A DNA stretch of 64,000 nt from Ryuthela nishihirai (Eukaryota; Arthropoda; Arachnida; Araneae; Heptathelidae), in the NCBI GenBank assembly GCA_038380435.1, contig JAWZYU010000127.1, positions 588,501 to 652,500 of the forward strand. Direction: 5' to 3'. A program made the translations under genes and the position numbers. Of this stretch, positions 1-46,834 are shown in pieces. Within the stretch, counting starts at the first letter, position 1. Each line of letters starts with the position of its first letter. The notes under the pieces were generated by a model that ran no database searches, was not told where the DNA came from, and was given only the letters and a program-made list of their open reading frames with translations.

Positions 1-1537
1 AAAAGTAAGCCAATGGCTCCAGATAGCAAGACCTTTGTTAAGAGCAGTTAGATTCCATGATTTACAACAGTACCCCAACAAGAAACATTACATCATCAAT
101 TTGGTAATTAGCATTGTTAAATACCAAATTTAGTTATCCAGATGCCAACTACAGCACGAACATACCACCACGGCTATTTTGGAAAAAACTAAATTGATTA
201 CGAAAGTTTATAGAAAGAGACACAAGTCTGTCCTTGCACATGATAAATATATTCTTTTGTGGTGTTTACCACATATTTAATCAGTTCACACTTCCTTCTT
301 GCTCCACTCATTTGTATTATTTTTCCTGTCTTCCTTCTTCTTTCCTCTTCTCACCTTTCGCTCAGTCCCTCCCCCCCTGTTATATTCTTTCCCCCCCCCC
401 CCTTCTATTTCTCTTGCCACCTCTCCTTTTTCATATTACCTTTCATTCTCACTATCAAATTATCCTTGCCTTTTTACTTTACCCATATGCTTCAATTAAC
501 TCCTTTTGTTTCAAACCCATTACACACTATCAGAACTTTAGCGCCCCCCCCCCCTTATCGTAACCAATTTTTTTATCACTTTTAACCCTATCATAAGACA
601 ATGCATATTTTTAACAGTTCATAGAGTGTTTACTTGTGGGAATCAGCCATGGGGTTCTCTTGCAATTTGCATTCTCATGGCCCCCCACAATTTCTCTTTT
701 CGGTTTGTTTTAACAAGTTTGAGTAAACAGGTTGCAAGGTATCTGCCCCCACTGGTCGCATTTGGCCATATGAGTAGACACCAGCATAGAGCAATACTGT
801 AGTGTGTTGGTGGCCGCATTTTCCGCCCCCCTCCCTAATTGTGGGAGCTGTGGGAGGGGAGGGGGGTGTAGTGGCCTCACTTCACTGCAGTGTTTAAGAT
901 TTCAAAAGTAGACCTTGCCCATTGAAATTTTCAAACAAATGAAAAATTTCTAATTACCGATGGAATATTTTTGGATAGCCCGGTTTGTTTCGCTAAGAAC
1001 CGGGACTGACAAATGGAGATAGAGTTTGGAAAGTAGTGAGTGAATTTGTAATGTAAAACAATTCGAAGTTGATAAAAGGATTATTCTAATAGAAAAGGTT
1101 TTTAAGGGGATAATAGGCTTTCTATGGTGAAGGGAATTAGAGGTATAAAGCATTAGTATTGTATATTTTTTTCTTTGTTGGCTATGGCTAGGCTTCGTGA
1201 TTTCTATTTCTTTTTGTGAATGCTAGGTGTTAGGGTACGTTTATACGATGTGTGTGTGTGGGGGGGGTTATGTTGTCAGGGGCTGGAATTGTTGGGCGAG
1301 TGCGTTTCTCAGATGGCCATGTTAATACTTGCTGGGTGTGTGGGGTGGGGATGAATAAGGCAAAGGGAGATTCAGGCGAAGTGAGGATGGGCGGGTGGAG
1401 GTGGTTGCGACTGCGTTTCCCGGCATCCGACGGACTTTTCAAAAAAATACATCAGACGGACTTCCTGTTTTGCTTTACATCTGATACGATTACTAAAGAA
1501 CTTTAAATGTTGCATGTACTAATTTTGGATTAAATAT
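1..1537. other. U2 3' flank, no gene seen
   Basis: This is AT-rich sequence downstream of the minus-strand U2 gene. It contains a pyrimidine tract (about 234-585), a short G-rich patch near 860 and a TG run followed by a G run at 1,250-1,267. The open frames here are short and low in complexity, and no protein family is recognisable. No SINE or LINE fragment found elsewhere in the window is visible here. Confidence 0.6.
280..585. repeat. Polypyrimidine low-complexity tract
   Basis: The plus strand is dominated by C and T, with C homopolymers near 390-400 and 545-554. The translated frames are rich in Pro, Ser, Phe and Leu only because of this bias. It is simple sequence, not a gene. Confidence 0.75.
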
Positions 1538-1686
1538 GTGGGCCGCTACCGGAAGTAGTGCAATACCGGTCCAACCCGTGACAGAGGTTGAGCAAGCTCA
1601 AAGCACTCCGTCGAACTACAAAAATAAGATTAATATCTTGATTTCATATAGAAATCGTATCAGATATTAAGCTGATAAGAACAGAT
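1538..1686 (-). ncRNA. U2 snRNA gene, 3' portion (interrupted)
   Basis: Read on the minus strand, this segment continues U2 from nucleotide 43 at position 1,682; positions 1,683-1,686 are the duplicated ATCT. Landmarks in order are GTTCTTATCAGC, the stem IIa region ATATCTGATA, a hairpin with GATTTC and GAAATC arms, the Sm-binding site ATTTTTG, the stem III sequence around GAGCTTGCTC, CCTCTGTCACGGGTTGG, and stem IV with GACCGGTATTGCACTAC. The end near 1,538 gives a total U2 length of about 187 nt, close to the usual 187-192. U2 pairs with the intron branch point in the spliceosome. This copy cannot make U2 directly because a 1,969-bp element separates it from its 5' end. The preserved stems and Sm site suggest that it was a real gene before insertion. 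Confidence 0.93.
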
Positions 1687-1869
1687 GTTTTTTGGTTACC
1701 GGCACTCTAAGTACTATACAAGTAACATAGCGACACCAAACACCAAAACTTTTACTCTATGACCCAGATGCCGCGACCAGGGGTATAGCTACCACAAGAT
1801 CGGGTGGCATCTCGGCCGCAGCAATGCCCGCTACGCAATCCACCGCGCCACGAACACTGCTGCGGGTAC

Positions 1870-2105
1870 CTGAAAACACAGAAACATAACAAAAAACATA
1901 CATATACTACTACAAAAAAAGCAGCAAAAACAAGAAAGTAGGCCATCGCCAAAGAAAAAGGAAACGACCAGGCAAGGGCGGGAAAAAGAGACGCGCAAGG
2001 GGAAAAGGCGCAACCAGAAAAGGCGAAAGAAAAAAGCCTACGAAGAAAAACTACCAAGAAAGGCAACCAAGAAGAGGAGGCGCGCAAGCGCAGGAAAATA
2101 CCTAC
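1870..2105 (-). other. Intron-like segment after ORF1
   Basis: On the minus strand, CAG followed by GTAGGT lies nine bases after the ORF1 stop codon. A long T-rich stretch ends in TGTGTTTTCAG at 1,870, giving 236 nt with consensus GT and AG ends and a strong polypyrimidine tract. It may be a real 3' UTR intron, or just the pyrimidine-rich 3' region of a retroelement. No transcript evidence is available from sequence alone. Confidence 0.3.
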
Positions 2106-2114
2106 CTGGCCCAC

Positions 2115-3320
2115 TCACGGACAGGCCTTCCTCCTCTTCTTCTTACTTACCTTACTGCGCTTCCCACTGGAAGTGCTGCTCGAACCACGTTCGCGACGTG
2201 GAGGCCGGTCAGTTGGCGGCCCTCCACCCGAGAAGTAGTGCACGGACTGGGGCTCTCCATCGACCCAACTCCAGTCGTAACTCTCAGACTCCGAAGGAAC
2301 CGTCTCCATTGTGCAAGACGTAGAACTCGTAGTACTCGTAGTTGCGGCATCCCCCACAGAGAGACTCGGCTGCCGCCCAGCTGGCTCTGACTCAGAGACA
2401 GCGGACGGGGTAGGCGAGCTGGCCGGCACGCTACCCGCAGAGGCGGAGGTGGCTGTGTTAGACGCAGCCACGCTCAGCTCTCCACAGGCAGAGGACCCTG
2501 CCTTCTCCCCCTCCGCAGAAGCCCCCGACGGGACGGCCGCTTTCCCTTCACTTCCAGCATGTCCCTCTGGAGTGACAGGGGGCGCACCGGCCGCCGAAGT
2601 CTTCTCAGCCGCAGTGCTCTCTGCGGTCTGTCTGGTGACAGGGGTAGTGCCCACCTTCGACGCAGCACCAGCCACGTTCGCATAGGAACGCTTCGGACAC
2701 TGCGTGCGAGGATGGGTTTCCCCGCAGATGCCACAAGGCGACGTGCACTTGCCAGCGGTGTGGCCCTTCAACTGGCAATTGCCACACACCACTAGGGTAC
2801 ACTCCGCAACTAAGTGGTCAGGAGAACCACACTTCCTGCAGACGCGAGCCATACCCGAGTAATTCACCATCAGGCGAAATGAGCCAGCCAGAATGAAATT
2901 AGGTACTGGACTGGTCATCTCCATCCTGATGCGACGATTACCCGTCTCCAGCTCCGGGAACTTCGTCCAACATTCCCTGACGATGTTCAGCACCTTCCCG
3001 TAGCGAGAGAGACACGCGCTGAGAACGCTATTGTCCAACTCGTACGGGACATTGTGCACCAGCAGAACACGCTCCTTGTTGTCCAGGGGCTTCACAGGGA
3101 TGGTCCTCTCTTTGAACTGGAATCCACCCAGTGTTAGCAACTTGTCCAACGTCTCAGCTTTACGGAGGGTCATGATGTAACGGCCGCTGCCGAAGCTGGA
3201 CAGACAAGAGGCACACTGGTCTCCGAACTGGCTGTAGAGAGCCTCCACGAGGTCCACTGCCGGTTCTTTGTCTCCTATGACAAAGGAGACCGATAGTTGG
3301 CGCCGCAGCACGCCCGACAT
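2115..3320 (-). CDS. ORF1/gag-like nucleic-acid-binding protein of Tx1-type LINE
   Basis: This is an intact 401-residue reading frame starting at ATG 3,320-3,318 and ending with TGA at 2,117-2,115. Residues about 80-155 match the conserved block seen in Tx1-type ORF1 proteins, with a motif around LLVHNVPYEL, a YGKV turn, the RRIRMEM strand and the VNYSGM segment just before the knuckles. I take it to be RRM-like. Three zinc knuckles follow: C161-C174 and C179-C192 (both CX2CX4HX4C) and C196-C208 (CX2CX3HX4C). Residues about 215-345 are a low-complexity linker rich in Ala, Ser, Thr and Pro. The last 30 residues are strongly basic. Known ORF1 proteins of this type bind the element RNA and escort it in a ribonucleoprotein. 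No ORF2 follows. The same frame stays open after the stop to 1,752, but that stretch is low complexity. Because the ORF is unbroken, the insertion is probably recent or the protein is under selection. Confidence 0.85.
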   Translation of the reverse strand: MSGVLRRQLSVSFVIGDKEPAVDLVEALYSQFGDQCASCLSSFGSGRYIMTLRKAETLDKLLTLGGFQFKERTIPVKPLDNKERVLLVHNVPYELDNSVLSACLSRYGKVLNIVRECWTKFPELETGNRRIRMEMTSPVPNFILAGSFRLMVNYSGMARVCRKCGSPDHLVAECTLVVCGNCQLKGHTAGKCTSPCGICGETHPRTQCPKRSYANVAGAASKVGTTPVTRQTAESTAAEKTSAAGAPPVTPEGHAGSEGKAAVPSGASAEGEKAGSSACGELSVAASNTATSASAGSVPASSPTPSAVSESEPAGRQPSLSVGDAATTSTTSSTSCTMETVPSESESYDWSWVDGEPQSVHYFSGGGPPTDRPPRRERGSSSTSSGKRSKVSKKKRRKACP

Positions 3321-3327
3321 CGTGGTC

Positions 3328-3395
3328 CTGAAACACTAAGAAAAAAGATTAAACAAGTCAACACTACACAAAATACACTACTACAAGATACTCAC
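3328..3395 (-). other. Intron-like segment in 5' UTR of the element
   Basis: On the minus strand GTGAGTATC at 3,395 matches a 5' splice site. A T-rich tract ending in TTAGTGTTTCAG at 3,328 matches a 3' splice site, eight bases upstream of the ORF1 ATG. The 68-nt span is a typical short insect intron length. Splicing is inferred only; the match could be chance. Confidence 0.35.
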
Positions 3396-3655
3396 CCGCT
3401 GAGCAGCTTCCTCTCCAGCACACAGCACGGCAGCCAGAAGCTTGCAAAACCGGTTCAAACAGCAAAGGAGTGCAATCTCATACACCCCAACTACTGCCTA
3501 AATCGGCCAGCAGATGGCACGCAAAACCTGCCCAACCAGCGATCGAGCACCTTAGCGCGAGCGTCGCCCGTTAAACAGATAATGCAAACTAAATTTGTGC
3601 AGTACCACCTCTCAATAAGGGCAGGGCATGCACACGGATCCCTTATTGAACTCCT

Positions 3656-3697
3656 AGATACTACACTTTGATCTTAGCCAAAAGGCCGAGAAGCGAT
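3656..3697 (-). ncRNA. U2 snRNA gene, 5' portion (nt 1-42)
   Basis: The minus strand from 3,697 reads ATCGCTTCTCGG and continues through the highly conserved U2 5' end to nucleotide 42 at 3,656. It includes the branch-point recognition sequence GTAGTA (nt 34-39). The next base (3,655) is element sequence, not U2. The U2 continuation resumes at 1,682. This 42-nt stub keeps its promoter side, so any transcript from it would run into the retroelement 5' UTR. Confidence 0.95.
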
Positions 3698-3740
3698 AAA
3701 CAGTATTCTTTTTAAATTATTAATAATTTTCATAATCAGA

Positions 3741-3760
3741 AATTCATACACGGTAATTCG
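3741..3760 (-). promoter_or_regulatory. Possible U2 proximal sequence element (PSE)
   Basis: On the minus strand the segment containing GAATTACCGTGTATG lies about 44-63 bases upstream of U2 nucleotide 1. Insect snRNA proximal elements usually sit there and often begin with TAATT-like bases. No TATA box is needed for RNA polymerase II U2 genes. Position is the main evidence; the consensus match is weak. Confidence 0.3.
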
Positions 3761-4150
3761 CGCGTAAGAATCCAAAAGTCCGTAGGCGAAGTCGCGGTAA
3801 AGTTGTTAGCGTGTGCGTTAAATCAGTCTGTTCTCCTGAACGGTTAGTCGACTTTATCCCACACAGAGACCGACATATTTTTTAAGCCTCCATTCCCACC
3901 CTCGAGCGAACAACACGGGCCCGGCTGTCCGTCCGTCCGTCCAATAGCATCACTGATCACCGCGGACCGCACCTCTCGAGCCGACAAGTGGTGCCATCTA
4001 TGGGTAGAGCGAAGGGACTAAGCGCATATGTAGATTGGGAGGTTGTAGGCCGTGAGGAGCAATTAGACTTTCCTGCTTCACCATATATTTATTCACCATA
4101 TTTTTTCGGAGAAAATAAAGGACAAATCACAAATTGTTTCATAATGAAAA
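3761..4150. other. U2 upstream flank, no gene seen
   Basis: Moderately GC-rich sequence upstream of U2, with a short GTCC tandem run near 3,928-3,942. The frame at 3,988-4,182 resembles no known protein. No repeat copy is recognised. Confidence 0.5.
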
Positions 4151-8971: not shown

Positions 8972-9350
8972 TGGGGACGGGGTGGCTCAGTCGGTAGCGC
9001 GCCAGGCTCGTAATCTGTAGTTCCTAGGTTCGAGTCCCAGCTGGGTCAGCGTTGAGATTTATCACTGCAAAATTTCCCCGTCCTGGCCACGGTCAGTAGG
9101 GGACACTGATGGGCTTGAAAAGGCCGCCGTCCGTCGGATGGGACGTTAAGCCGTGGCCCCGTTTGCGGGAGAGCCCATACCCTGTGCACGTTATAGAACA
9201 CGCTAGATGGCCTTGACGGGAGGCTACCATCTGTCTCCCAACAGCTGTTCCAGTGGGTCCCCTCACCCAACCATCTCTGAGTCTTCGGGGTCCTTGTGGC
9301 CTGGCCATTTAGCCCATGGTGTGCAAAAAAAGTGCCGTTCTGAGGTAATA
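8972..9350 (+). mobile_element. SINE-B full-length copy
   Basis: Begins GGGGACGGGGTGGCTCAGTC, with A box and B box in the expected order. The central body holds GGGACGTTAAGCCGTGG and CCTGTGCACGTTATAG, and the 3' module ends GTGTGCAAAAAAAGTGCCG and TGAGGTAATAC. The inverted duplicate is at 18,665-19,045. Confidence 0.9.
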
Positions 9351-11480: not shown

Positions 11481-12817
11481 ATGAAATGACTCCTCGGCTA
11501 AGCACTTAATCCCTGTGTAGTCTGTAATACAGAAATTCGTTAAAATTATGTTGCTGTTATGGATAATTTTATATTGTGAATGTTGTATTCCAAGCCTATC
11601 GGTGTCCAGTACTGACCGTGGGAAGGGCGGGGAGTTTTGCGGAGATAAATCTCAACGCTGAGGATTCTTTATGAGTTCCGTACTTAAATAGAAATGGAAA
11701 CCGAAACATATTTATCGCTGTGCCCAATGAAAGGTACATTATTCCATTCTCCCTTCCTTTAAACTTGTTTCTTTTAGGGTTTCAGACTAAATAAACAGAT
11801 TTCGCTGCTATTAAACATCAGAACTTGCGTTACTAATTAAATACTGCATCAATTGAAGTAGTAAAATAAAATAGTTTTTCTAATGTCTCTTAATTATCAA
11901 GGGTATTTTTTTGTGTTTTAAAACCTATTACTGTTCGTAAATTTTATCCCAATGAGATGATACGGAATACAGCGTCATAACTTAGCGAGTTGCGGAGTGT
12001 CATTTACTACCTGTCTCTGGCAGTCATAACTCATCGGTGAAATCAATGTACACGCTCGAAATTTTCACAGAAAGTTTCAGGTTAAGGTCCAGTTTGCAGT
12101 GCGAAATTTCAGGTCGGAAGTCCAAATAAGTTGAACCGTAACAAAAAAAAAAAATTCACATTTCCCCTCACCCAAAAAAGTGTCCTAAATTTATATTTCA
12201 GCATACTATATGTGGTAATATTCAAATAGTGTTCATTAAAGTTTTGAAACATGAATGCATATATATAACTTATGTACTTAATTAAATTCACACGTACGAC
12301 AATTATTGCTAAATGAAATAAATTCCTCTAGGTGGCGTTAATTTTGTTTTAACGAAATATTTGCTTCTTCCCGCCTCTCCTAACGGTTGTTCGTGTTCCT
12401 CTTCTACGATTGGTCAAATATGTTACAATGGCACGTGCACCTAGATAGCTTCACACGTGGCACCCTTAGTTACGATAGCAACCATATATTCGCTTTGACT
12501 TCAGTGTCAAATTTTACTCTCAATTCATTTCTTCTTTTCCATAATATATTTTATTACGTATATTTAGAATAAAGTTCACACACCACGTAAATTTTACCTA
12601 CACAAGAATCGAACTACAGTTAGCAATGATTAATAGTAATATTACAATATTTCATAAACGTTAATATTTAATATATGCGAATGCAATTAAATATCAAAGC
12701 CGGAAATTACATACAATTCCACTATAACGTTTCAGCTTAAATAACTGGGATTTATTAATTTAATTATCAAACTTCACTGGTTTTATTAACAATCTGACAC
12801 CGTGGAGACGGGGGCGG
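11481..12817 (-). repeat. Repeat unit U, inverted copy
   Basis: An AT-rich non-coding unit of about 1.3-1.4 kb that recurs at 28,861-30,290, 42,484-43,910 and 57,284-58,505 in the opposite orientation. It ends beside a SINE-B in every case. At 11,590-11,665 it holds a SINE-B-like scrap (GGAGTTTTGCGGAGATAAAT). Frames here recur in all copies but match no family I know. Confidence 0.75.
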
Positions 12818-13185
12818 GGTGGCTCAGTCGGTAGCGCGGCAGGCTCGTAATCTGTAGTTCCCAGGTTCGACTCCCAGCTGGTTCAGCGTTCAGATTTTTC
12901 TCCTCAAAATTCCCCGCCCTGCCCACTGTCAGTAGGGAACACCGATGGGCTTGGAAAGGGCGCCGTCCGTCGGATGGGACGTTAAACCGTGGCCCCGTGT
13001 GCGGGAGTGACATACCCTGTGCACGTTAAAGAACACGCTGGATGGCCTTGACGGGAGGCTACCATCTGTCTCACAACAGCTGTTCAAGTGAGTCCCCTCC
13101 CCCAACCTTCTCTCACCCTTCGGGGTCCATGTGACCTGGCCATTTGGCCCATGGTGTGCAAAAAAGTGCCGTTCAGAGGTAGGCA
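12818..13185 (+). mobile_element. SINE-B full-length copy
   Basis: Starts GGCGGGGTGGCTCAGTCGG, with B box GGTTCGACTCC, and ends GTGCCGTTCAGAGGTAGG. It lies at the end of repeat unit U. Equivalents in the other copies are 28,497-28,860, 42,115-42,483 and 56,900-57,283. Confidence 0.9.
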
Positions 13186-18664: not shown

Positions 18665-19045
18665 TTTACCTCAGAACGGCACTTTTTTGCACACCATGGG
18701 CTAAATGGCCAGGACACAAGGACCCCGAAGACTCAGAGATGGTTGGGTGAGGGGACCCACTGGAACAGCTATTGGGAGACAGATGGTAGCCTCCCGTCAA
18801 GGCCATCCAGCGTGTTCTTTAACGTGCACAGGGTATTGGCTCTCCCGCAAACGGGGCCACGGCTTAACGTCCCATCCGACGGACGGCGGCCTTTTCAAGC
18901 CCATCGGTGTCCCCTACTGACCGTGGGCAGGACGGGGAAATTTTGCGGTGATAAATCTCAACGCTGACCCAGCTGGGACTCGAACCTAGGAACTACAGAT
19001 TACGAGCCTGGCGCGCTACCGACTGAGCCACCCCGTCCCCAATGT
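18665..19045 (-). mobile_element. SINE-B full-length copy
   Basis: The inverted twin of 8,972-9,350, with head at 18,960-19,045 (ACTGAGCCACCCCGTCCCC on plus). A long frame through it (18,605-18,967) is only antisense SINE. Confidence 0.9.
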
Positions 19046-22016: not shown

Positions 22017-22142
22017 GGTTTTGTAACCAAAGGAAATTCTCCTTTATTTATTTACTAAAAATGGAATGGAACCCGGCGACCGACGTAGAATGACTTTGGC
22101 TAATATTCTAGGAGTACAGCGCTTGGGGGGGGAAAAAAAAAT
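22017..22142 (-). repeat. Shared 3' tail of 5S-derived family
   Basis: Downstream of the 5S copy on the minus strand: nine T, eight C, then AAGCGCTGTACTCC, GCCGGGTTCCATTCC, TTTTTAGTAAATAAATAAA, ending GTTACAAAACCTGC. The same tail follows all four 5S copies in the window. Confidence 0.8.
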
Positions 22143-22260
22143 GTCAACTGCACGCGGTGTTCCCAGGTGGTCACCCTCCCAAGTACTGACCGCGCCCAAA
22201 GCTGCTTAACTTCGGGGATCAGACGAGAACCGGTGCTTTCAGCTTGGTATGGCCGTTGAC
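22143..22260 (-). rRNA. 5S rRNA gene copy, apparently complete
   Basis: An exact 118-nt minus-strand match to the 5S structure, from GTCAACGGCCATACCAAGC to GCGTGCAGTTGAC. The internal promoter region (AAGTTAAGCAGC, then GGTCAGTACTTGGGAGGG and GACCACCTGGG) is intact and a run of nine T follows directly as an RNA polymerase III terminator. The ends GTCAAC and GTTGAC pair perfectly. It sits alone among repeats, not in a tandem 5S array, so it may be a dispersed gene, a retro-copy or a 5S-headed SINE. Confidence 0.85.
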
Positions 22261-27766: not shown

Positions 27767-28146
27767 GGTTGTTTTACCTCTGAGCGGCACTTTTTTGCAC
27801 ACCATGGGCTAAATGGCCAGGTCACATGGACCCCAAAGGCTCGGAGAAGGTTGGGGGAGGGGACCCACTGGAAACAGCTGTTGGGAGACAGATGGTAGCC
27901 TCCCGTCAAGGCCATCTAGCGTGTTCTTTAACGTGCGCAGGGTATGGCTCTCCCGCACACGGGGCCACGGCTTAACGTCCCATCCGACGGACGGCGGCAT
28001 TTCCAAGCCCATCGGTGTCCCCTACTGACCGTGGGCAAGGCGGGGAATTTTGCGGAGATAAATCTCAACGCTGACCCAGCTGGGACTCGAACCTGGGAAC
28101 TACAGATTACGAGCCTGCCGCGCTACCGACTGAGCCACCCACGCCC
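27767..28146 (-). mobile_element. SINE-B copy with target-site duplication
   Basis: The inverted twin of 13,531-13,910, flanked by ACGTTATGTTG at 27,756-27,766 and just after 28,146. Confidence 0.92.
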
Positions 28147-28496
28147 CACGTTATGTTGGATAATATTCGTTCCTGTAATATTCACTAAATGGCTTCGGCC
28201 AGGTACGAGAAATGGTGAGAAAGGAAGCTTAAAGAAACAGAACTTTGTTGCGGATATGGAGAGGTGTCACTTCCTTCGAAGTCGGAAAACAATTAAATCA
28301 ACAATGTTATTTTCAGACGTCAGCAAAGAATTATTACGATTACTTTCAAACAGTATACAGTTAATGAAATCTGTTGAAGTGAAACGTACGTAGTACCGTC
28401 GACATTTTTCAGTTTTCTTCTAGGCGCGCTGGCAACGTGCATGGCGCTAATCAAAAAACAAAAAGGCGATGCAGAAGGCAGGCAAAAGACCTGCCT
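28147..28496. other. Spacer between SINE-B copies
   Basis: Inverted copy of 13,186-13,519. The 149-residue frame spanning 27,944-28,393 is antisense SINE plus spacer, not a gene. Confidence 0.5.
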
Positions 28497-28860
28497 ACCT
28501 CTGAGCGGCACTTTTTTGCACACCATGGGCCAAATGGCCAGGTCACATAGACCCCGAAGGGTGAGAGAAGGTTGGGGGAGGGGATTCACTTGAACAGCTG
28601 TTGTGAGACAGATGGTAGCCTCCCGTCAAGGCCATCCAGCGTGTTCTTTAACGTGCACAGGGTATGTCTCTCCCGCACACGGTTTAACGTCCAATACGAC
28701 GGACGGCGCCCTTTCCAAGCCCATCGGTGTCCCCTACTGACAGTGGGCAGGGCAGGGAATTTTGCGGAGAAAAATCTGAACGCTGAACCAGCTGGGAGTC
28801 GAACCTGGGAACTACAGATTACGAGCCTGGCGCGCTACCGACTGAGCCACCCCGCCCCCG
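28497..28860 (-). mobile_element. SINE-B copy at the start of unit U
   Basis: Minus-strand SINE-B with head ending at ACCCCGCCCCCG on the plus strand. A short deletion removes part of the GGGGCCACGG block. Confidence 0.9.
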
Positions 28861-30290
28861 TCTCCACGGTGTCAGATTGTTAATAAAACCAGTGAAGTTT
28901 GATAATTAAATTAATCAATCCCAGTTATTTAAGCTGAAACGTTATAGTGGAATTGTATGTAATTTCCGGCTTTGATATTAAATTGCATTCGCATATTTTA
29001 AATATTAACGTTTCTGAAATATTATAATATTACTATTAATCCTTCCTAAATGTAGTTCGATTCTTGTTTAGGTAAAATTTACGTGGTCTATGAACTTTAT
29101 TCTAAATATACGTAATAAAATATATTATGGAAAAGAAGAAATGAATTGAGAGTAAAATTTGACACTGAAGTGAAAGCGAATACATGGTTGCTATCGTAAC
29201 TAAGGGCGCCACGTGTGAAGCTATCTAGGTGCACGTGCCATTGTAACATATTTGACCAATCGTAGAAGAGGAACACGAAGAACCGTTGGGAAAGGCGGGA
29301 AGCAGGAAATATTTCATTAGAAACAAAATTAACGCCACCTAGAGGAATTTATTTCATTTAGCAATAATTGTATGTGTTTAAGTACATAAGTTATATTTAT
29401 GCATTCATGTTTCAAAACTTTAATGAACACTATTTGAATATTACCACGTATAGTATGCTGGAATATAAATTTAGGACACCTTTTTGGGTGAGGGGAAATG
29501 TGAATTTTTTTTTTTGTTACGGTTCAACTTATTTGGACTTCCGACCTGAAATTTCGCACTGCAAACTGGACCTTAACCTGAAACTTTCTGTGAAAATTTC
29601 GAGCGTGTACATTGATTTCCCCGATGAGTTATGACTGCCAGAGACAGGTAGTAAATGCCACTCCGCAACTCGCTAAGTTATGACGCTGTATTCCGTATCA
29701 TCTCATTGGGATAAAATTTACGAACAATAATAGGTTTTAAAACACAAAAAAATACCCTTGATAATTAAGAGACATTAGGAAAACTATTTTATTTTACTAC
29801 TTCAACTGATGCAGTATTTAATTAGTAACGCAAGTTCGGATGTTTAATAGCAGCGATATCTGTTTATTTAGTCTGAAACCCTAAAAGAAACAAGTTTAAA
29901 GGAAGGGAGAATGGAATAATCTACCTTTCATTGGGCACAGCGATAAATATGCTTCGGTTTCCATTTCTATTTAAGTACGGAGCTCATAAAGAATCCTCAG
30001 CGTTGAGATTTATCTCCGCAAAACAAAAATTTATCTCGCCCTTCCCACGGTCAGTACTGGACACCGATTGGCTTGGAATACATTATTCACAATATAAAAT
30101 TATCCATAACAGCAACATAATTTTAACGAATTTCTGTATTACAGACTACACAGGGATTAAGTGCTTAGCCGAGGAGTGATTTCATACCCTAAACATTTAA
30201 CCTCTAATGATTATTTTATTTCCTAATCCAAAGAGGCTTAACGTGTTAGGGAAAAGAGTGAAAATATCTTCATAAATATAATAAAGGAAT
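28861..30290 (+). repeat. Repeat unit U
   Basis: From TCTCCACGGTGTCAGATTG to the AT-rich end before SINE-A. It is nearly identical to 42,485-43,910, similar to 57,284-58,505, and inverted at 11,481-12,817. A SINE-B-like scrap near 30,000-30,075 is partly rearranged. Non-coding. Confidence 0.8.
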
Positions 30291-30960
30291 AAAAAAACAC
30301 CCCCTCAAGCAGCTGCTTGCAACAGCGATCTAACAGGAGCCTGTCAGTTTCCCCGCCATAGTCGAAGGTCTGTGAGGGTGGTGACCCCTTTAATTACTTT
30401 AATACGCCATATATTAGATATGCGTTTGGTTGGGTTGTTTCATCTCTGAACGGTAGTTATTTGCACACAAGGGTCTAAATGGCGACGTCATAAAGAACCA
30501 GAGGGATCAGTTTAGGTTGCGGGAAGGTGACCGAATGTTATGAGACAGATGAAAAAATAGGAGATTGGTTCCAGACGTGAAAAAAAACAACATACCCCCT
30601 CAAGAAGCTGCTTCCCACAGAGATCTGACAGGAAGCTGTCACTTTACATACCATAATAGAAAGTCTGTGAGGATGACAGGTCCTCAGCACAAAAACGACA
30701 CGTACGTCCATGCCTTACCCGGGACTCGAACCCAGGTCCCTTAGACGTGAAAACCGAATACAAATGAGTTGTTTTCAAACAAGTGATATCAAAATCTTGA
30801 AGTCTTTATTTCATTTTTATTAATTTTAAGACATTTTTAATTTCATAAACTTAGTAGTTTTCAAATTAAAACCAACCGGTTTGGTTTTAAAGAAAAGAAA
30901 TATATAAAGAATTCTTCAATATTTTTTGGTTTTTTTTTATCTTTGTAGTTTTTTTTTTAA
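30291..30960 (-). mobile_element. SINE-A, SINE-B and CCGG-repeat cluster
   Basis: SINE-A 3' half at 30,298-30,385, SINE-B remnant at 30,425-30,555, SINE-A from the B box at 30,593-30,755, then the repeat with AACCAACCGGTTTGGTTTTA near 30,870. The same cluster is at 5,290-5,960 and 43,915-44,575. Confidence 0.8.
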
Positions 30961-30964
30961 CTCA

Positions 30965-31318
30965 GCTCGTAGTCTGTAGTTCCCAGGTTCGAGTCCTAGC
31001 TGGGTAAGCGTTGAGATTTATCTCCGCAAAATTCCCCGCCCTGCTCACGGTCAGTAGGGGAGACCGGTGGTCTTGGAAAGGATGCCGTCCGTCGGATGGG
31101 GCGTTAAGCATTGGCCCCGTGTGTGTGAGAGCCATATCCTGTGCACGTTAAAGAACACGCTGGATGGCCTTGACGGAAGGCTACCATCTGTCTCCCAACA
31201 GCTGTTCCAGTAAGTCCCCTCCGCCAACCTTCTCTGAGCCTTCGGGGCCCATGTGACCTGGCCATTTAGCCCATGGTGTGCAAAAAAGTGCCGCTCAGAA
31301 GTAAAACAACCCAACCTA
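30965..31318 (+). mobile_element. SINE-B copy, head truncated
   Basis: Starts at CTCGTAGTCTGTAGTTCCC, keeps the B box, and ends GAAGTAAAACAACCCAAC. The duplicate is at 44,585-44,935. Confidence 0.88.
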
Positions 31319-31755
31319 TTAGATTATCTAAATATTGTTTCAGGATGTTTCTGAAGGGTAAAATAATTCATTTATACTACAGAAAATAAATGATCTAAAT
31401 AAATGCACCAAATTCTGTTTTAAATTTTTAAACGGTAAATAGGTTCCGGAAAAAAACGTGTAAAAAAAAAATTCTAAAACAAAACACAGTGCATATGAAA
31501 AAATAGAAGATTGGTTCCAGACGTGAAAAAAAAAACATACCCCCTCAAGCAGTTGCTTGCCACAGAGATCTGATAGGAACCTGTCAGTTTATATGCAAGT
31601 GTTAGTTTAATTATCTTTATAACTTTAAACACATGAGAGACCAAGACTAACGTATATTGCAGATAAAAATGAGGGGAATTCCCAGAACTCAAAGTTACCA
31701 TTTTTTCTAAATGGTTTCGTAGTTTTTCGATCAAATGGAAAATAAAATGCATTAA
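31319..31755. repeat. Spacer with SINE-A 3' fragment
   Basis: A minus-strand SINE-A 3' end (CCCCCTCAAGCAGTTGCTTG) lies at 31,540-31,600. The rest is AT-rich with no gene. The duplicate is at 44,936-45,370. Confidence 0.6.
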
Positions 31756-32500
31756 AATGTTGAGTTGTTTTACCTCTGAGCGGCTCTTTCTTACACACCA
31801 TGGGCTAAATGGCCATGCCACATGGACCCCGAAGGCTCAGAGAAGGTTGGGGGATGGGACCCACTTGAATAGCTGTTGTGAGACAGATGGTAGTCTCCCG
31901 TGAAGGCCATCCAGTGTGTTCTTTAAAGTACACAGGGTATGGTACTTTTTTGAAAACCATGGGCTAAATGGCCATGCCACATGGATCCCGAAGGCTCAGA
32001 GAAGGTTGGTGGAGGGTCCTCACTGGAACAGCTGTTGGGAGACAGATGGTAGCCTCCCGTCAAGGACATCCAGCGTGTTCTTTAACGTAAACAGGGTATG
32101 GTACATTTTTGCAAACCATGGGCTAAATGGCCAGGTCACATGGACCCCGAAGGCTCAGAGAAAGTTGGGGGAGGCTAAACAGCTGTTGTGAGACAGATGA
32201 TAGCCTCCCGTCAAGGCCACCCAGCGTGTTCTTTAACGTAAACAGGGTATGGTACTTTTTTTTGCAAACCATGGGTTAAATGGCCATGCCACATGGACCC
32301 CGAAGGCTCAGAGAAGGTTGGGGGAGGGTCCTCACTGGAACAGCTGTTGGGAGACAGATCATAGGCTCCCGGCAAAGCCATGCAACGTGTTCTTTAACGT
32401 GCACAGTGTATGGCTTTTCCGCACACGGGGACACGGCCTAAGATCCCATCCGACGGATGGTGACACGGCCTAAAATCCATCCGACGGCCTTTCCAAGTTT
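31756..32500 (-). repeat. Four-unit tandem array of the SINE-B 3' module
   Basis: The block ACCATGGGCTAAATGGCC (or a close variant) recurs with spacings of 159, 159 and 153 bp (31,798, 31,957, 32,116 and 32,269), ending in a partial SINE-B body with two truncated GATCCCATCCGACGGATGG-like blocks. The duplicate is at 45,373-46,115. Confidence 0.88.
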
Positions 32501-32509
32501 ATCGATTAG

Positions 32510-33000
32510 TAGAACTAATGGTTGGGCGAGGAAAAAAAATTCTTTGCTTAATTTTTGATTTCTTCATTTTCGTATTTGTCGTTACAGTAGGCGTAGAAAT
32601 ATATCTATATCGTAAATGATCAAACGGCAGTTTTTTTTTATGTACAGGTTTTCACATCTATTTGACCCATTACCGCCTGTCTGGATAGCCTTCTACAAAA
32701 AGAGCGAAAATAGATATGCCTAAACAAGCAATTCCATTCATTGGTTTAAGATAACTTAAAGTTAATTTATTTTAATAACATTCAAAATAATTTACTTATT
32801 AAGATTTTATTTAAATGTTTCCGAATATTTTAAAAATATTTCAAATAACTAGCAGTTAATATTTTAGGATTAGAAATTCTTTTTGATTTACACACTTTGT
32901 TTCTGAAATATATTGTAAAAATTAAAGTGGGAACATTGGACATTCTCATTCTACTGGGTGACGTCACTTCCGTGTTTTCGCGATATCGTTTGTAATCCTT
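32510..33000. repeat. Left arm of an imperfect inverted repeat
   Basis: 32,512-32,645 pairs in reverse with 35,820-35,950 and 32,660-32,905 with 35,195-35,435. Near its inner side it carries GTGACGTCACTTCCGTGTTTTCGCG (palindrome 32,959-32,966), a variant of the TGACGTCA element end. Confidence 0.6.
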
Positions 33001-33199
33001 ATTTAACCGCTGTATTCTTCTAGTAATTTAACTTTTAATTTATATTCACACGTTATAGTTTTTATTCTGAGGAAGTCATACAATCTGTAGCTGAATTTCT
33101 TATCACTGTGGTAAATAATAATTATTGATGACACATTTGAAATTTCGGTACGAGAATAGATAGTTTCGTCGCTGCAGTGTAAAATTTTACCTTTAGGCC

Positions 33200-34080
33200 T
33201 TTGTAATTACTTTACGAGTTATTTGTTTCGCTGAGTTGCCTGGTATAGCTCTGTGCTGTCCAACTGCTTCTTCGGCTCTGTCATCCAAAGATTATTATCA
33301 GGAGCTAACTGATCCTTTACACGTTTATTAAGCTCTCTATAATGTTTTCTATTAGAATTAATATTGATTCAGGACATTCCTGTAGTTCTTTCTTTCTAAA
33401 ATAAACTCAAGTGCCTTGTCACTCGGATAATTATGCGTCCTCTGTTTCATTTTACGTAAGAGTACCTGTTAGTTTGCAAAAAAGTCTATTTTAGGTGGTC
33501 ACATTTTTCCTGAACTTAAGTAGCAAGTAAACCACGACTGTCATAATGAGTAAGTAACCTATCATGATAAGATGTACTCTAATTAGGTCTTTCACAGCTT
33601 CATAATTAAAGGTAAATTTTTTAACCTTAACACAACACTTCTTAAGTTTAAAACGCAAAACGCTTTTAACAAGATAATGGTCAGATCCAATTTCAGCTTC
33701 CGAATATGACCTGTTCTTTGTAACAGAAGTAGTCCATTTGCTGTTAATTAATATATAATCTACAAAGTTCTTATGCAGCCCATGAGATGAAACCCACGTG
33801 TACTTATGTATGTCGCGGTGTTTGTAATAAGTGTTAGTTATTGTAAAACCATTGAGGTTAACATTGACATTGACGTCACGAAGAACAAGGGTAACATCTC
33901 ATTTCTTCACAGAATTCGAAATACCTTGAAGTTGTCTGTAAAACCTATTTTCTCATCGTCATTCAAAGTGGTGGCATAACAGTAGATAAGTTTGAAGTCC
34001 TTAACCCTTGTCTGTAATTTTGCTGTAAAGAACCTTTCATTAATATCCTAGGAGAGCATCACTAGCGTCTCATGCCTTGG
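33200..34080 (-). pseudogene. Decayed LINE endonuclease fragment (copy D)
   Basis: Minus-strand DNA clearly related to 37,860-38,830 of copy A (shared segments such as AATGGTCAGATCCAATTT and GAAACCCACGTGTACTTATG). It is full of stops and small gaps, with no long frame left. It is older than copies A-C. The duplicate is at 46,835-47,690. Confidence 0.75.
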
Positions 34081-35110
34081 TGATGTTTATTCTCTTTCTT
34101 CACCGAAAATTTCAGATAGTCACGGTGAATCCGAAAAACTTTTGAAAGAGGTACTAGGTTAAAAGGAATGCATCTTATTTCTCGTCTATAATTTTTAGTA
34201 AATTTGGTATACAAGATATCGAAAAATATTAGTGCGGAAGAGGAAACAAACTCCTCTGTTGGGAATACGAAACAATGTAAATGTCACTTCCTCCGGATTG
34301 TGTAAACAATGCATTCTGAAACGTCACTCTCCGATGTCATTCGCCTCTTATTGAATTCGTCCAACGCTTTTGTCGCTGTTCCATTAGTCGCGTTAGCTAT
34401 TAAAATATGGCGAAGAAGTCATCCTATTTTGAGGGTCTGTAATTATCAGAGCTTTGCCTATCGCGAACAGATTCGAGTATAATAAGGAGCCACAGACAAG
34501 GTCCTTGCGGTTGATAAATAACGTCAGCCTGTCCTTCCGTAACTTAGATCTCTGGTGGTCGAAAAGTTTCAGCTAAAGCCAGTTAAATAATATTCGTGAA
34601 GTGTTTGTGGTTCTTTTATATTTTCCTTCAGGTAAGTAATTTTGTAATGAATAATTAGTTAAGAGTATAGGTAATCTAATTCTACAGTTTTTAGCCTAAG
34701 AGCTATGAAATTTCGGACGGTTTCGAACCAACAAATAGTACGCAGCACATTATTCTGATTATGGGATATAAAATTGATAGCTAAGCGCTATTTGACGTGT
34801 CGACCACTTTATTTTGGCTCGTCATACGGACATTATTCATTTCCTATGCTTTTCACACACCCTACGGAACGGCAACAGAATTTCCTTGTTATGCCAGTGA
34901 GAAACGTTACTTGGAAGCTCTAAAATATGCATTTAATGGAAAAATGTCACTGATGATAAATTAAAGATCATAATCAAATATTTTTTTTAAATATCGGTTT
35001 TAAAAAACATTGTTTTAGTTATATAAAAATATTGTTTAGTCTTCAGTGGTATGCCAGTGAGAAACTGGAATTATTATTTCAGCAGGTAAATTAGAATTAC
35101 TAATCCTATC
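34081..35110. repeat. Inner part of the inverted repeat, no gene
   Basis: Contains a single satellite-like monomer (34,890-35,075, see 59,515-60,290). At 34,545-34,820 a segment pairs in reverse with 35,985-36,200; both carry CAGGTAAGTA, a consensus 5' splice site. No protein family recognised. Confidence 0.45.
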
Positions 35111-36220
35111 GCGAAAATACGGACATGACGTCATCTATCGTATGTCCAAGTGTTGCCACCATAATTTCTATAAGATCTTTCAAAACCAAAGTATGTATAA
35201 ATCGAAAAGAATTTCTAATCCTAAAATATTAACTGGTAGTAGTTATTTCCTTTTTTTAATTTTGGTAAATATTTTTATAATATTCTGAAATATTTAAATA
35301 AAATCTTAATAAGAAAATTATTTTGAGTGTTATTAAAATAAGTTAACTTTAAGTTATCTTAAACCAATGAATGGAATTGCTTGTTTAGGCATATTTATTT
35401 TCGCTCTTTTTGTTGAAGGCTGTCCAGACAGGCGGTAACTAGGTGGCTTTCACGAAACGCGTTTCCCTATGGTGTCCAACGAGAAATTCGTAGATCGAGG
35501 CTAGGTGTGAATCTCTTACGTATGTCATAGGCAACTTTGTCCTTAGGGGTAAAGAACGGTTTTTCCTGTGTTCACAAAGAACAACTCTGTGGTTTAATCT
35601 AAGGCTTCTATTACACGTTTCGCTGTACTGTACATTACCTTCTTCTTAGCTCTGAGCAATGCGTTTCCGTGTAGTGGGTAAATTATATATTTATCGCCAC
35701 GTTGACATTTCTTGGGCTCGTTACGTCACCCTATCAGCTCGATATATCTGTTGCGAACATGAGACGTTGGTTTCAAACTTCGTCCACGATAATGGGCAAA
35801 TACATCTGAAAGCATGTACATAAAAATACTGCCGTTTGATCATTTACGATATAGAACTATTTATACGCGTACTGTAACGACGAATGGCGAAATGAAGAAA
35901 TCAAAAATTAAGCAAAGAATTTTTTTTCCTCGGACAACCATTAGTCCTACTGACCGAGCCTAAATGAAAGGGGTGGTTTGTGGTCGACAGCGACAAATAG
36001 CGTTTAACTATAAAATTTATATCTCATAATCAGATTAATGTGCTGTACAGTAGCTCTCGGTTGAAATTTCATAACTCTCGTGTTAAAAAGTGGAAAATTA
36101 CACTACCTCTACTGTAAATTAATTATTCAGTACAAAGTTACTTACCTGAAAGAATTTATAAACGAACCACCAACACTTTATGAATATTATTAAACTTGAT
36201 TCACCTGATATTTTTTCGAA
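35111..36220. repeat. Right arm and outer flank of the inverted repeat
   Basis: It begins with CGCGAAAATACGGACATGACGTCATC (palindrome 35,126-35,133). 35,436-35,819 has no partner in the left arm, and most of 35,392-35,683 is missing from the duplicate at 49,000. No gene. Confidence 0.55.
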
Positions 36221-42114: not shown

Positions 42115-42483
42115 TGTTTTACCTCTGAGCGGCACTTTGTTGCACACCATGGGCTAAATGGCCACGTCACATGGACCCGGAAGAAGGCTGGGGTAGGGGA
42201 CCAACTGGAACAGCTATTGTAAGACAGATGGTAGCCTCCCGTCAAGGCCATCGAGCGAGTTCTTTAACATGCACAGGGTATGGCTGTCGCACACACGGGG
42301 CCACGGCTTAACGTCCCATCCGACGGACGGCGGCCTTTCCAAGCCCATCGGTGTCCGCTACTGACCGTGGGCAGGGCGGGGAATTTTGCGGAGAAAAATC
42401 TGAAAGCTGAACCAGCTGGGACTCGAACCTGGGAACTACAGTTTACGAGCCTGGCGCGCTACCGACTGGCCCACCCCGCCCCT
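42115..42483 (-). mobile_element. SINE-B at the tandem duplication junction
   Basis: Minus-strand SINE-B with head at 42,410-42,483. It joins the end of copy 1 to the start of copy 2 and is the likely crossover point. Confidence 0.88.
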
Positions 42484-43910
42484 GTCTCCACGGTGTCAGA
42501 TTGTTAATAAAACCAGTGAAGTTTGATAATTAAATTAATCAATCCCAGTTATTTAAGCTGAAACGTTATAGTGGAATTGTATGTAATTTCCGGCTTTGAT
42601 ATTAAATTGCATTCGCATATTTTAAATATTAACGTTTCTGAAATATTATAATATTACTATTAATCCTTCCTAAATGTAGTTCGATTCTTGTTTAGGTAAA
42701 ATTTACGTGGTCTATGAACTTTATTCTAAATATACGTAATAAAATATATTATGGAAAAGAAGAAATGAATTGAGAGTAAAATTTGACACTGAAGTGAAAG
42801 CGAATACATGGTTGCTATCGTAACTAAGGGCGCCACGTGTGAAGCTATCTAGGTGCACGTGCCATTGTAACATATTTGACCAATCGTAGAAGAGGAACAC
42901 GAAGAACCGTTGGGAAAGGCGGGAAGCAGGAAATATTTCATTAGAAACAAAATTAACGCCACCTAGAGGAATTTATTTCATTTAGCAATAATTGTATGTG
43001 TTTAAGTACATAAGTTATATTTATGCATTCATGTTTCAAAACTTTAATGAACACTATTTGAATATTACCACATATAGTATGCTGGAATATAAATTTAGGA
43101 CACCTTTTTGGGTGAGGGGAAATGTGAATTTTTTTTTTGTTACGGTTCAACTTATTTGGACTTCCGACCTGAAATTTCGCACTGCAAACTGGACCTTAAC
43201 CTGAAACTTTCTGTGAAAATTTCGAGCGTGTACATTGATTTCCCCGATGAGTTATGACTGCCAGAGACAGGTAGTAAATGCCACTCCGCAACTCGCTAAG
43301 TTATGACGCTGTATTCCGTATCATCTCATTGGGATAAAATTTACGAACAATAATAGGTTTTAAAACACAAAAAAATACGCTTGATAATTAAGAGACATTA
43401 GGAAAACTATTTTATTTTACTACTTCAACTGATGCAGTATTTAATTAGTAACGCAAGTTCGGATGTTTAATAGCAGCGATATCTGTTTATTTAGTCTGAA
43501 ACCCTAAAAGAAACAAGTTTAAAGGAAGGGAGAATGGAATAATCTACCTTTCATTGGGCACAGCGATAAATATGCTTCGGTTTCCATTTCTATTTAAGTA
43601 CGGAACTCATAAAGAATCCTCAGCGTTGAGATTTATCTCCGCAAAACTCCCCGCCCTTCCCACGGTCAGTACTGGACACCGATAGGCTTGGAATACATTA
43701 TTCACAATATAAAATTATCCATAACAGCAACATAATTTTAACGAATTTCTGTATTACAGACTACACAGGGATTAAGTGCTTAGCCGAGGAGTGATTTCAT
43801 ACCCTAAACATTTAACCTCTAATGATTATTTTATTTCCTAATCCAAAGAGGCTTAACGTGTTAGGGAAAAGAGTGAAAATATCTTCATAAATATAATAAA
43901 GGAATAAAAA
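42484..43910 (+). repeat. Repeat unit U, copy 2
   Basis: Nearly identical to 28,861-30,290. It keeps the SINE-B-like scrap intact near 43,645-43,680 where copy 1 is rearranged. Confidence 0.8.
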
Positions 43911-44580
43911 AACACCCCCTCAAGCAGCTGCTTGCAACAGCGATCTAACAGGAGCCTGTCAGTTTCCCCGCCATAGTCGAAGGTCTGTGAGGGTGGTGAC
44001 CCCTTTAATTACTTTAATACGCCATATATTAGATATGCGTTTGGTTGGGTTGTTTCATCTCTGAACGGTAGTTATTTGCACACAAGGGTCTAAATGGCGA
44101 CGTCATAAAGAACCAGAGGGATCAGTTTAGGTTGCGGGAAAGTGACCGAATGTTATGAGACAGATGAAAAAATAGGAGATTGGTTCCAGACGTGAAAAAA
44201 AACAACATACCCCCTCAAGAAGCTGCTTCCCACAGAGATCTGACAGGAAGCTGTCACTTTACATACCATAATAGAAAGTCTGTGAGGATGACAGGACCTC
44301 AGCACAAAAGCGACACGTACGTCCATGCCTTACCCGGGACTCGAACCCAGGTCCCTTAGACGTGAAAACCGAATACAAATGAGTTGTTTTCAAACAAGTG
44401 ATATCAAAATCTTGAAGTCTTTATTTCATTTTTATTAATTTTAAGACATTTTTAATTTTATAAACTTAGTAGTTTTCAAATTAAAACCAACCGGTTTGGT
44501 TTTAAAGAAAAGAAATATATAAAGAATTCTTCAATATTTTTTGGTTTTTTTTTATCTTTGTAGTTTTTTTTTTAACTCAG
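43911..44580 (-). mobile_element. SINE-A, SINE-B and CCGG-repeat cluster, copy 2
   Basis: The same order as 30,291-30,960, with SINE-A pieces at 43,915-44,000 and 44,211-44,365. Confidence 0.8.
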
Positions 44581-44584
44581 CTCG

Positions 44585-44935
44585 TAGTCTGTAGTTCCCA
44601 GGTTCGAGTCCTAGCTGGGTAAGCGTTGAGATTTATCTCCGCAAAATTCCCCGCCCTGCTCACGGTCAGTAGGGGAGTCCGGTGGTCTTGGAAAGGATGC
44701 CGTCCGTCGGATGGGGCGTTAAGCATTGGCCCCGTGTGTGTGAGAGCCATATCCTGTGCACGTTAAAGAACACGCTGGATGGCCTTGACGGAAGGCTACC
44801 ATCTGTCTCCCAACAGCTGTTCCAGTAAGTCCCCTCCGCCAACCTTCTCTGAGCCTTCGGGGCCCATGTGACCTGGCCATTTAGCCCATGGTGTGCAAAA
44901 AAGTGCCGCTCAGAAGTAAAACAACCCAACCTATT
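44585..44935 (+). mobile_element. SINE-B copy, head truncated, copy 2
   Basis: The duplicate of 30,965-31,318 with very few changes. Confidence 0.88.
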
Positions 44936-45372
44936 AGATTATCTAAATATTGTTTCAGGATGTTTCTGAAGGGTAAAATAATTCATTTATACTACAGAAA
45001 ATAAATGATCTAAATAAATGCACCAAATTCTGTTTTAAATTTTTAAACGGTAAATAGGTTCCGGAAAAAAACGTGTAAAAAAAAAATTCTAAAACAAAAC
45101 ACAGTGCATATGAAAAAATAGAAGATTGGTTCCAGACGTGAAAAAAAAAACATACCCCCTCAAGCAGTTGCTTGCCACAGAGATCTGATAGGAACTTGTC
45201 AGTTTATATGCAAGTGTTAGTTTAATTATCTTTATAACTTTAAACACATGAGAGACCAAGACTAACGTATATTGCAGATAAAAATGAGGGGAATTCCCAG
45301 AACTCAAAGTTACCATTTTTTCTGAATGGTTTCGTAGTTTTTCGATCAAATGGAAAATAAAATGCATTAAAA
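44936..45372. repeat. Spacer with SINE-A 3' fragment, copy 2
   Basis: The duplicate of 31,319-31,755, with a SINE-A fragment at 45,155-45,210. No gene. Confidence 0.6.
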
Positions 45373-46115
45373 TGTTGAGTTGTTTTACCTCTGAGAGGCT
45401 CTTTCTTACACACCATGGGCTAAATGGCCATGCCACATGGACCCCGAAGGCTCAGAGAAGGTTGGGGGATGGGACCCACTTGAATAGCTGTTGTGAGACA
45501 GATGGTAGTCTCCCGTCAAGGCCATCCAGTGTGTTCTTTAAAGTACACAGGGTATGGTACTTTTTTGAAAACCATGGGCTAAATGGCCATGCCACATGGA
45601 TCCCGAAGGCTCAGAGAAGGTTGGTGGAGGGTCCTCACTGGAACAGCTGTTGGGAGACAGATGGTAGCCTCCCGTCAAGGACATCCAGCGTGTTCTTTAA
45701 CGTAAACAGGGTATGGTACATTTTTGCAAACCATGGGCTAAATGGCCAGGTCACATGGACCCCGAAGGCTCAGAGAAAGTTGGGGGAGGCTAAACAGCTG
45801 TTGTGAGACAGATGATAGCCTCCCGTCAAGGCCACCCAGCGTGTTCTTTAACGTAAACAGGGTATGGTACTTTTTTTGCAAACCATGGGTTAAATGGCCA
45901 TGCCATATGGACCCCGAAGGCTCAGAGAAGGTTGGGGGAGGGTCCTCACTGGAACAGCTGTTGGGAGACAGATCATAGGCTCCCGGCAAAGCCATGCAAC
46001 GTGTTCTTTAACGTGCACAGTGTATGGCTTTTCCGCACACGGGGACACGGCCTAAGATCCCATCCGACGGATGGTGACACGGCCTAAGATCCATCCGACG
46101 GCCTTTCCAAGTTTA
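45373..46115 (-). repeat. Four-unit SINE-B 3' module array, copy 2
   Basis: The duplicate of 31,756-32,500 with the same unit number. The array therefore formed before the 13-kb duplication. Confidence 0.88.
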
Positions 46116-46830
46116 TCGATTAGTAGAACTAATGGTTGGGCGAGGAAAAAAATTCTTTGCTTAATTTTTGATTTCTTCATTTTCGTATTTGTCGTTACAG
46201 TAGGCGTAGAAATATATCTATATCGTAAATGATCAAACGGCAGTTTTTTTTTATGTACAGGTTTTCACATCTATTTGACCCATTACCGCCTGTCTGGATA
46301 GCCTTCTACAAAAAGAGCGAAAATAGATATGCCTAAACAAGCAATTCCATTCATTGGTTTAAGATAACTTAAAGTTAATTTATTTTAATAACATTCAAAA
46401 TAATTTACTTATTAAGATTTTATTTAAATGTTCCGGAATATTTTAAAAATATTTCAAATAACTAGCAGTTAATATTTTAGGATTAGAAATTCTTTTTGAT
46501 TTACACACTTTGTTTCTGAAATATATTGTAAAAATTAAAGTGGGAACATTGGACATTCTCATTCTACTGGGTGACGTCACTTCCGTGTTTTCGCGATATC
46601 GTTTGTAATCCTTATTTAACCGCTGTATTCTTCTAGTAATTTAACTTTTAATTTATATTCACACGTTATAGTTTTTATTCTGAGGAAGTCATACAATCTG
46701 TAGCTGAATTTCTTATCACTGTGGTAAATAATAATTATTGATGACACATTTGAAATTTCGGTACGAGAATAGATAGTTTCGTCGCTGCAGTGTAAAATTT
46801 TACCTTTAGGCCTTTGTAATTACTTTAGGA
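46116..46830. repeat. Left arm of inverted repeat, copy 2
   Basis: The duplicate of 32,510-33,200, including the GTGACGTCACTTCCG block. No gene. Confidence 0.6.
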
Positions 46831-46834
46831 GTTA

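Follow-up and report, generated by a model that had tools for sequence, protein, structure and literature searches.

Keno belongs by its reverse transcriptase (RT) to the Tx1 clade, and HAL1 is an ORF1-only derivative of L1 that is mobilised in trans. In the available part of PMC4640811, Keno is described as an APE-type, U2-specific element reported from frogs, fish, lancelet and hydra, and Utopia as a U2-specific element of the NeSL clade with an RLE, U2 nt 39 being the published 3' site for both. The same text asks what allows target-specific elements to survive in U2, an essential gene with few copies. For R2, the available part of PMC3774820 describes upstream 28S duplications together with uniform joints in which the leader is kept, and explains them by annealing of a 28S leader. 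Here we describe el1, an element found within a U2 gene of the spider Ryuthela nishihirai in a stretch of 64,000 nucleotides, called the window in the following (contig JAWZYU010000127.1, abbreviated as C127, positions 588,501 to 652,500). The 3' junction of el1 at U2 nt 39 is shared with Keno and equally with Utopia.

A U2 gene cut in two by el1

Both parts of the interrupted gene, which lies on the minus strand, match the Rfam U2 family (RF00004), one at 1533-1717 with 116 bits (E 9e-23) and the other at 3566-3697 with 48.8 bits (E 1e-6), the true U2 of the latter match being nt 1-42 only. The exact joints place the 5' part (nt 1-42, identical to that of all 30 intact loci compared) at 3656..3697, el1 at 1687..3655, and the 3' part (nt 39-192) at 1533..1686, all on the minus strand. 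The two U2 parts flanking el1 overlap by ATCT (U2 nt 39-42), which occurs on that strand at 1683..1686 as the start of the 3' part and at 3656..3659, where it may represent the end of a U2 leader carried by the element. Joined together, the two parts give 192 nt with zero differences from each of the 30 intact U2 loci (30 fetched out of 33 found), none of which contains a U2 duplication. Two empty sites, one on the contig of the window 385 kb away (L002) and one at L026, show 100% identity to the joined flanks along 3,192 bp. Because the joined flanks equal the intact genes and the empty sites, the insertion looks young and the host U2 gene normal. A sequence-only reading had reported a U2 gene split by a retroelement and proposed an alignment to intact U2 genes of the same assembly; the split, the insert length of 1,969 bp (3655-1687) and the 42-nt 5' end (3697-3656) are borne out, and the remainder of U2, given there as about 145 nt with its low end at 1538, is corrected to 154 nt, or 150 nt if the repeated ATCT is not counted, ending at 1533.

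The window lies in one of several repeated units, marked on C127 by six U2 parts spaced 124-130 kb apart. It also contains a 5S rRNA match of 102 bits at 22142-22260 on the minus strand and another of 52.5 bits, with many broken pairs, at 55457-55572 on the plus strand. Six tRNA-Thr(CGT)-like sequences (8976-9048, 12812-12885, 18965-19037, 28072-28145, 28784-28857 and 55381-55454) are likely to constitute a tRNA-derived repeat family. A direct duplication of 6.9 kb with 97.9% identity and a spacing of 13.6 kb occupies 28496-35391 and 42120-48993.

Structure and coding content of el1

On the minus strand, el1 consists of a 5' untranslated region of 335 bp (3321..3655), an ORF1 of 401 aa plus stop (2115..3320; coding span from the ATG 2118-3320), and a 3' region of 428 bp (1687..2114). 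The 5' end begins with AGGAGTTC and is identical in the 16 sampled untruncated U2 copies; the 3' region ends with ...CCGGTAACCAAAAAAC and has no RT-like ORF. ORF1 has the same sense as U2 and is the sole long ORF of el1. The predicted protein has a weak RRM-like region (RRM_1, E 0.25 with the first 226 aa), CCHC knuckles and a low-complexity tail. Pfam reported one zf-CCHC, just under the cut-off with the whole ORF (E 6e-4) and just over it with the first 226 aa (E 3e-4), and three CCHC-type spacings can be discerned by eye. Neither a reverse transcriptase nor an endonuclease was revealed by inspection of ORFs and Pfam matches, be it in the 428 bp that follow ORF1 or in the whole 1,969 bp. The earlier suggestion of a LINE in U2 is upheld as to a site-specific retroelement and fails as to a LINE with RT, the element encoding one ORF1-like protein of 401 aa. 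ORF1 retrieved no protein homologue at E<=1 among the best 7,984 candidates from public proteins, and a two-sequence ORF1 alignment retrieved none at E<=0.1 among 7,738 candidates. Structure models were uninformative (mean pLDDT 35 and 34). Besides U2, no Rfam family matched the 5' end of el1 up to E 10, HDV-like ribozymes included.

A chance ORF was rejected on the basis of 2,000 mononucleotide shuffles, in which the longest stop-free run was 320 codons versus 406 in el1. A Dada-like DNA transposon was also discarded, as none of the five inverted pairs in 1400-3800 joins the ends of el1, and the 5' truncations of its copies point to reverse transcription instead. Putative splice-like sites occur at el1 donor 261/acceptor 328 and donor 1506/acceptor 1786 (numbered within 1687-3655, minus strand), the latter of which would alter the C-terminus of ORF1.

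We searched for kin of ORF1 by tblastn in 262.5 kb of C127, comprising the window and a further stretch and including 20,000 bases of N. An ORF with 33% identity to ORF1 over 223 aa (E 1e-35) was found once in each of two C127 repeat units. The copy 6 kb before the window belongs to a decayed L1-group LINE (L051; C127:582,495 to ~588,630, in the orientation opposite to U2), in which the ORF1 (RRM_1 E 0.0015, also under the cut-off) is followed by broken ORF2 pieces matching Exo_endo_phos (1.4e-8), RVT_1 (1.7e-15) and zf-RVT (9e-8). This LINE stops near the start of the window. The best solved relatives of its RT and endonuclease pieces are human L1 ORF2p (2e-23) and the L1 endonuclease (2e-12), respectively; the next relatives of the RT piece are 8gh6, a "Reverse transcriptase-like protein" (2.9e-13), which we take to be R2Bm, and entries named R2 (2.5e-9). 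Since the ORF2 pieces of this kin LINE resemble L1 most, el1, having no RT of its own, is placed by its predicted ORF1 on the APE, L1-group side of LINEs, to which Keno also belongs, and not on the RLE side of Utopia. An RT piece of this passenger LINE lies about 3 kb from five of the six U2 parts on C127. A genome search with RT for an autonomous partner, with 148 scored of 69,617 candidates, yielded near-identical copies of the passenger LINE throughout.

Genomic copies and their junctions with U2

A DNA search of the 3.11-Gb genome with el1 gave at least 41 matches (40 scored of 260 candidates). The matches listed comprise 23 full-length copies (1-1969) at 99-100%, three copies truncated at the 5' end that begin at nt 67, 190 and 202, a subfamily at 87% with 12 full-length copies and one covering 1-1880, one copy at 92%, and one fragment (1-1201) at 96%. 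ORF1 as query gave 106 matches, which are the best-scoring ones (103 scored of 5,255 candidates). Among those listed, the frame has no stop in all 26 matches at 99-100%, in all 34 at 90-91% (32 spanning 1-401 and two nearly so), in the 92% copy on C61, and in 22 of 22 matches at 51-52% covering 1-398; a 51% match on C17 (1-397) has two stops, and several lower-identity or partial matches are broken. These open frames are non-independent, as copies may come from duplicated units and not from insertions. el1 is a multicopy family with an open ORF1 and no ORF2, as in an ORF1-only LINE derivative of the HAL1 kind.

U2 nt 39-69 occurs 312 times exactly in the genome, and the reversed control pattern does not occur. 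The exact pattern of nt 30-69 was found 33 times, so that 33 of the 312 copies keep the 5' side, a count that misses copies changed within nt 30-38. The 3' site of el1 could be checked on contigs represented among the first 100 of the 312 places, which hold 12 el1 matches. Eight of them end exactly before U2 nt 39, including one copy of the 87% subfamily (C170); three end 2.0-2.3 kb before a U2 nt 39 on the same strand, two of them being followed by U2 nt 39-59 and a further insert; and one, on C61, lies outside U2. Five 3' flanks were read (C78, C86, two on C195, and C61). On C78, C86 and C195 (L093, L094 and L096), the element is followed by U2 nt 39-59 and then by a different insert, el1 having apparently inserted into U2 target sequence that remained in front of an older insertion. 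The flank on C61 reads ATCTAGTG, a non-U2 site sharing ATCT, and the one behind the 1-1201 fragment on C195 is neither U2 nt 39-59 nor a site of the C61 type.

The 5' joints were sampled in 20 of the 41 matches, and 19 of these lie in U2. Eleven are plain, with U2 1-42 running directly into the first bases of el1. Five others (L077, L078, L080, L089 and L091) bear a second U2 piece, whose last base before the element is nt 42. In these double-U2 joints, the boundaries of which are ambiguous by a base or two where the pieces share letters, the first piece ends close to the cut, between about nt 32 and 45, and the second starts at about nt 22 (L077), 16 (L078), 29 (L080) or 14 (L089, with extra letters between its two pieces). 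L091 combines U2 1-38 with a complete U2 1-42, the second piece starting from exactly nt 1. As for the 5'-truncated copies, U2 1-38 is joined straight to the element without ATCT in L082 and L084, and L083 (C93:977,475-977,595) has U2 1-34, U2 17-34 and then element nt 190; the 17-34 piece may stem from a template jump to a U2 RNA. The copy outside U2 (L085 on C61) has a non-U2 flank, U2 nt 24-42 and then the element.

Because the U2 units are duplicated, copy number is not insertion number, and we counted distinct junctions: nine 5' joints in U2, among the 19 read, and one outside U2. A single chance insertion later amplified by duplication of U2 units would agree with flanks of the units being 98-100% alike over about 3 kb and with the 23 closest full-length copies being 99-100% alike, but it is contradicted by these distinct joints, three of which are different 5' truncations, as well as by the copy outside U2 and by the presence at this base of a subfamily with 87% identity, so that we consider it extremely improbable. 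The sequence-only reading had called for a genome search for the U2/el1 junction and would have taken a junction found nowhere else, with the element at random sites, as the sign of chance; instead, copies elsewhere adjoin U2 nt 39 to the base (8 of 12) and all but one of the 20 sampled 5' junctions fall within U2, from which we conclude that the insertion was not a chance event.

ATCT is repeated in the untruncated copies and plainly unrepeated in two of the three truncated ones. Since truncated copies lack ATCT, the U2 pieces end at nt 42, and the C61 copy carries U2 24-42, the repeat, which the sequence-only reading had noticed and taken for a 4-bp duplication, is probably not a classic target-site duplication. 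The joints suggest a simple reading in which both strands would be cleaved at position 38/39 or close to it, and the ATCT before the element would be part of a U2 leader borne by the RNA. As the complete leader of L091 begins at nt 1, this one junction suggests that the template RNA might start at U2 +1, namely by transcription from the U2 promoter. On the other side, the 11 plain joints fit a simple 4-bp duplication equally well, and so does the C61 copy with ATCT on both sides. An ordinary Keno-like, U2-specific APE LINE producing a true 4-bp target duplication could account for these features if the copies were internally deleted and the 5' U2 duplications were later products of slippage or of unequal exchange among U2 units. 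The 3' site is that of Keno (PMC4640811, available part), 11 of the 20 sampled joints look plain, and exchange is possible between repeated units; yet ATCT is missing from two of the 5'-truncated copies, each of the five extra U2 pieces stops at nt 42 where it meets the element, U2 24-42 accompanies the off-target copy, and the 30 intact U2 genes compared are free of duplications, which makes this origin quite unlikely in our judgement.

Considering the evidence as a whole, we find it probable that el1 is a U2-gene-specific, non-autonomous, ORF1-only family of non-LTR retroelements with a U2 leader, mobilised in trans. The template RNA would be a cotranscript from U2 +1, so that it would carry U2 nt 1-42 as its leader, and target-primed reverse transcription would begin at a nick immediately preceding U2 nt 39. 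The end of the cDNA would then anneal to the U2 DNA upstream; in most cases this would rebuild nt 1-42 without a seam, and in the others partial U2 duplications would remain at the 5' joint. RT, endonuclease and target recognition would be supplied in trans by an autonomous element with a related ORF1.

Possible partners and relation to known systems

At two loci on C159, an open ORF1 with 51% identity precedes U2 nt 39 by 3,806 and 3,807 bp, respectively. The intervening stretches, C159:15,044-18,849 and C159:535,566-539,372, leave enough room for an ORF2, and these loci might be regarded as candidate donors only. The other six of the eight 51% ORF1s on the listed contigs are unlike these two: a third on C159 lies 5,802 bp before U2 nt 39, those on C88 lie 8.9 and 21.7 kb and the one on C86 13.5 kb before it, and the two on C17 have no U2 there among the places listed.

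The U2 nt 39 site has other residents. Two of the first 22 listed U2 nt 39-69 places hold el1, and the remaining 20, read upstream, all end in a retroelement-like tail, 19 of the AATAAA type and one el1-like. The 19 tails fall into nine groups at 90% identity, within a non-random sample in which a single family accounts for 8 of the 20 junctions, seven of these lying on contig C51. The el1-like tail (L060; C28:1,008,107-1,008,237) is 77% identical to el1 and joined to U2 nt 39, possibly representing a further related family that may have other coding content. In the U2 unit next before the window (L039; C127:460,309-464,024), two tandem copies (1,853 and 1,846 bp, 98.3%) of an element unrelated to el1 and without a long ORF, el2, occupy the same U2 base, with U2 nt 39-55 present as 17-bp repeats. 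The U2 nt 39 site is used by several element families.

The donor might accordingly be sought among the AATAAA-tailed, perhaps Utopia-like (RLE) families and not in an APE LINE, a variant that overlaps with the explanation preferred above and concerns the donor only. Nineteen of the 20 sampled U2 nt 39 junctions have such tails, and arthropod Utopia makes no target duplication according to the available text of PMC4640811, like the truncated el1 copies. We nevertheless regard this donor as unlikely: the el1 tail is 51-58% identical to the AATAAA tails versus 64-77% among those (one per group), the ORF1 of el1 is of the APE-LINE kind, and the tails are only putatively Utopia, el2, itself one of these elements, differing from published arthropod Utopia by its 17-bp repeats. 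More tentatively, and doubtful to us as it stands, el1 might be one half of a split LINE that lives almost only in U2 genes, with ORF1 maintained by selection on its own element and the snRNA promoter giving rise to its capped mRNA with a U2 leader, and with ORF2 coming from other U2 residents, the parasites together holding about nine tenths of the U2 copies of this genome.

A single genome presents 312 exact U2 3' parts, 33 of them with the 5' side, in repeated units in which one base is occupied by several families. With the series of junctions, it can be tested whether a protein-coding retroelement is driven by an snRNA promoter, and asked what keeps the frame open in an element that has ORF1 only.

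Compared with Keno, which has an ORF2 with APE endonuclease and RT, el1 has no such ORF in its 1,969 bp, although its ORF1 has a relative in the ORF1 of an APE LINE from this genome and is Keno-like in this respect. The variable 5' boundaries of el1 are reminiscent of Utopia, as is the excess of disrupted over intact U2 genes, described for Utopia in Nasonia, and the arthropod Utopia families lack a target duplication, as do the truncated el1 copies L082 and L084, the ATCT repeat being present in the untruncated ones (PMC4640811, as far as its available part goes). In that account, however, the product of Utopia is in general a single protein that combines N-terminal zinc fingers with RT and RLE, in contrast to the ORF1-type protein with CCHC knuckles of el1. 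R2 and the R2/R1 SIDEs, in the available parts of PMC3414825 and PMC3774820, use a target cotranscript with a target-derived leader, to which el1 would be similar if its own cotranscript is as we suppose; they also share with el1 upstream-target duplications at 5' joints, non-autonomous site-specific copies and template jumps to snRNA, the last being a possibility in el1 (L083). In these sources, an HDV-like ribozyme cleaves the R2 cotranscripts, whereas Rfam recognised none in el1, and the R2 SIDE retains two ends, whereas el1 retains an open ORF1. As regards the ends that a SIDE has in common with its autonomous element, the two C159 loci with room for ORF2 are the candidates. HAL1 resembles el1 in being ORF1-only and in trans mobilisation, which is presumed for el1, but HAL1 is not target-specific, unlike the U2-specific el1. 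No ORF1-only U2-specific element is named in the titles and abstract openings retrieved by searches of open-licence papers. Site-specific U2 insertion, its site and its logic are already known from Keno, Utopia and R2; the new variant is an ORF1-only, U2-specific family, probably with a U2 leader, whose frame is open in 60 near-full-length matches at 90-91% and 99-100% identity.
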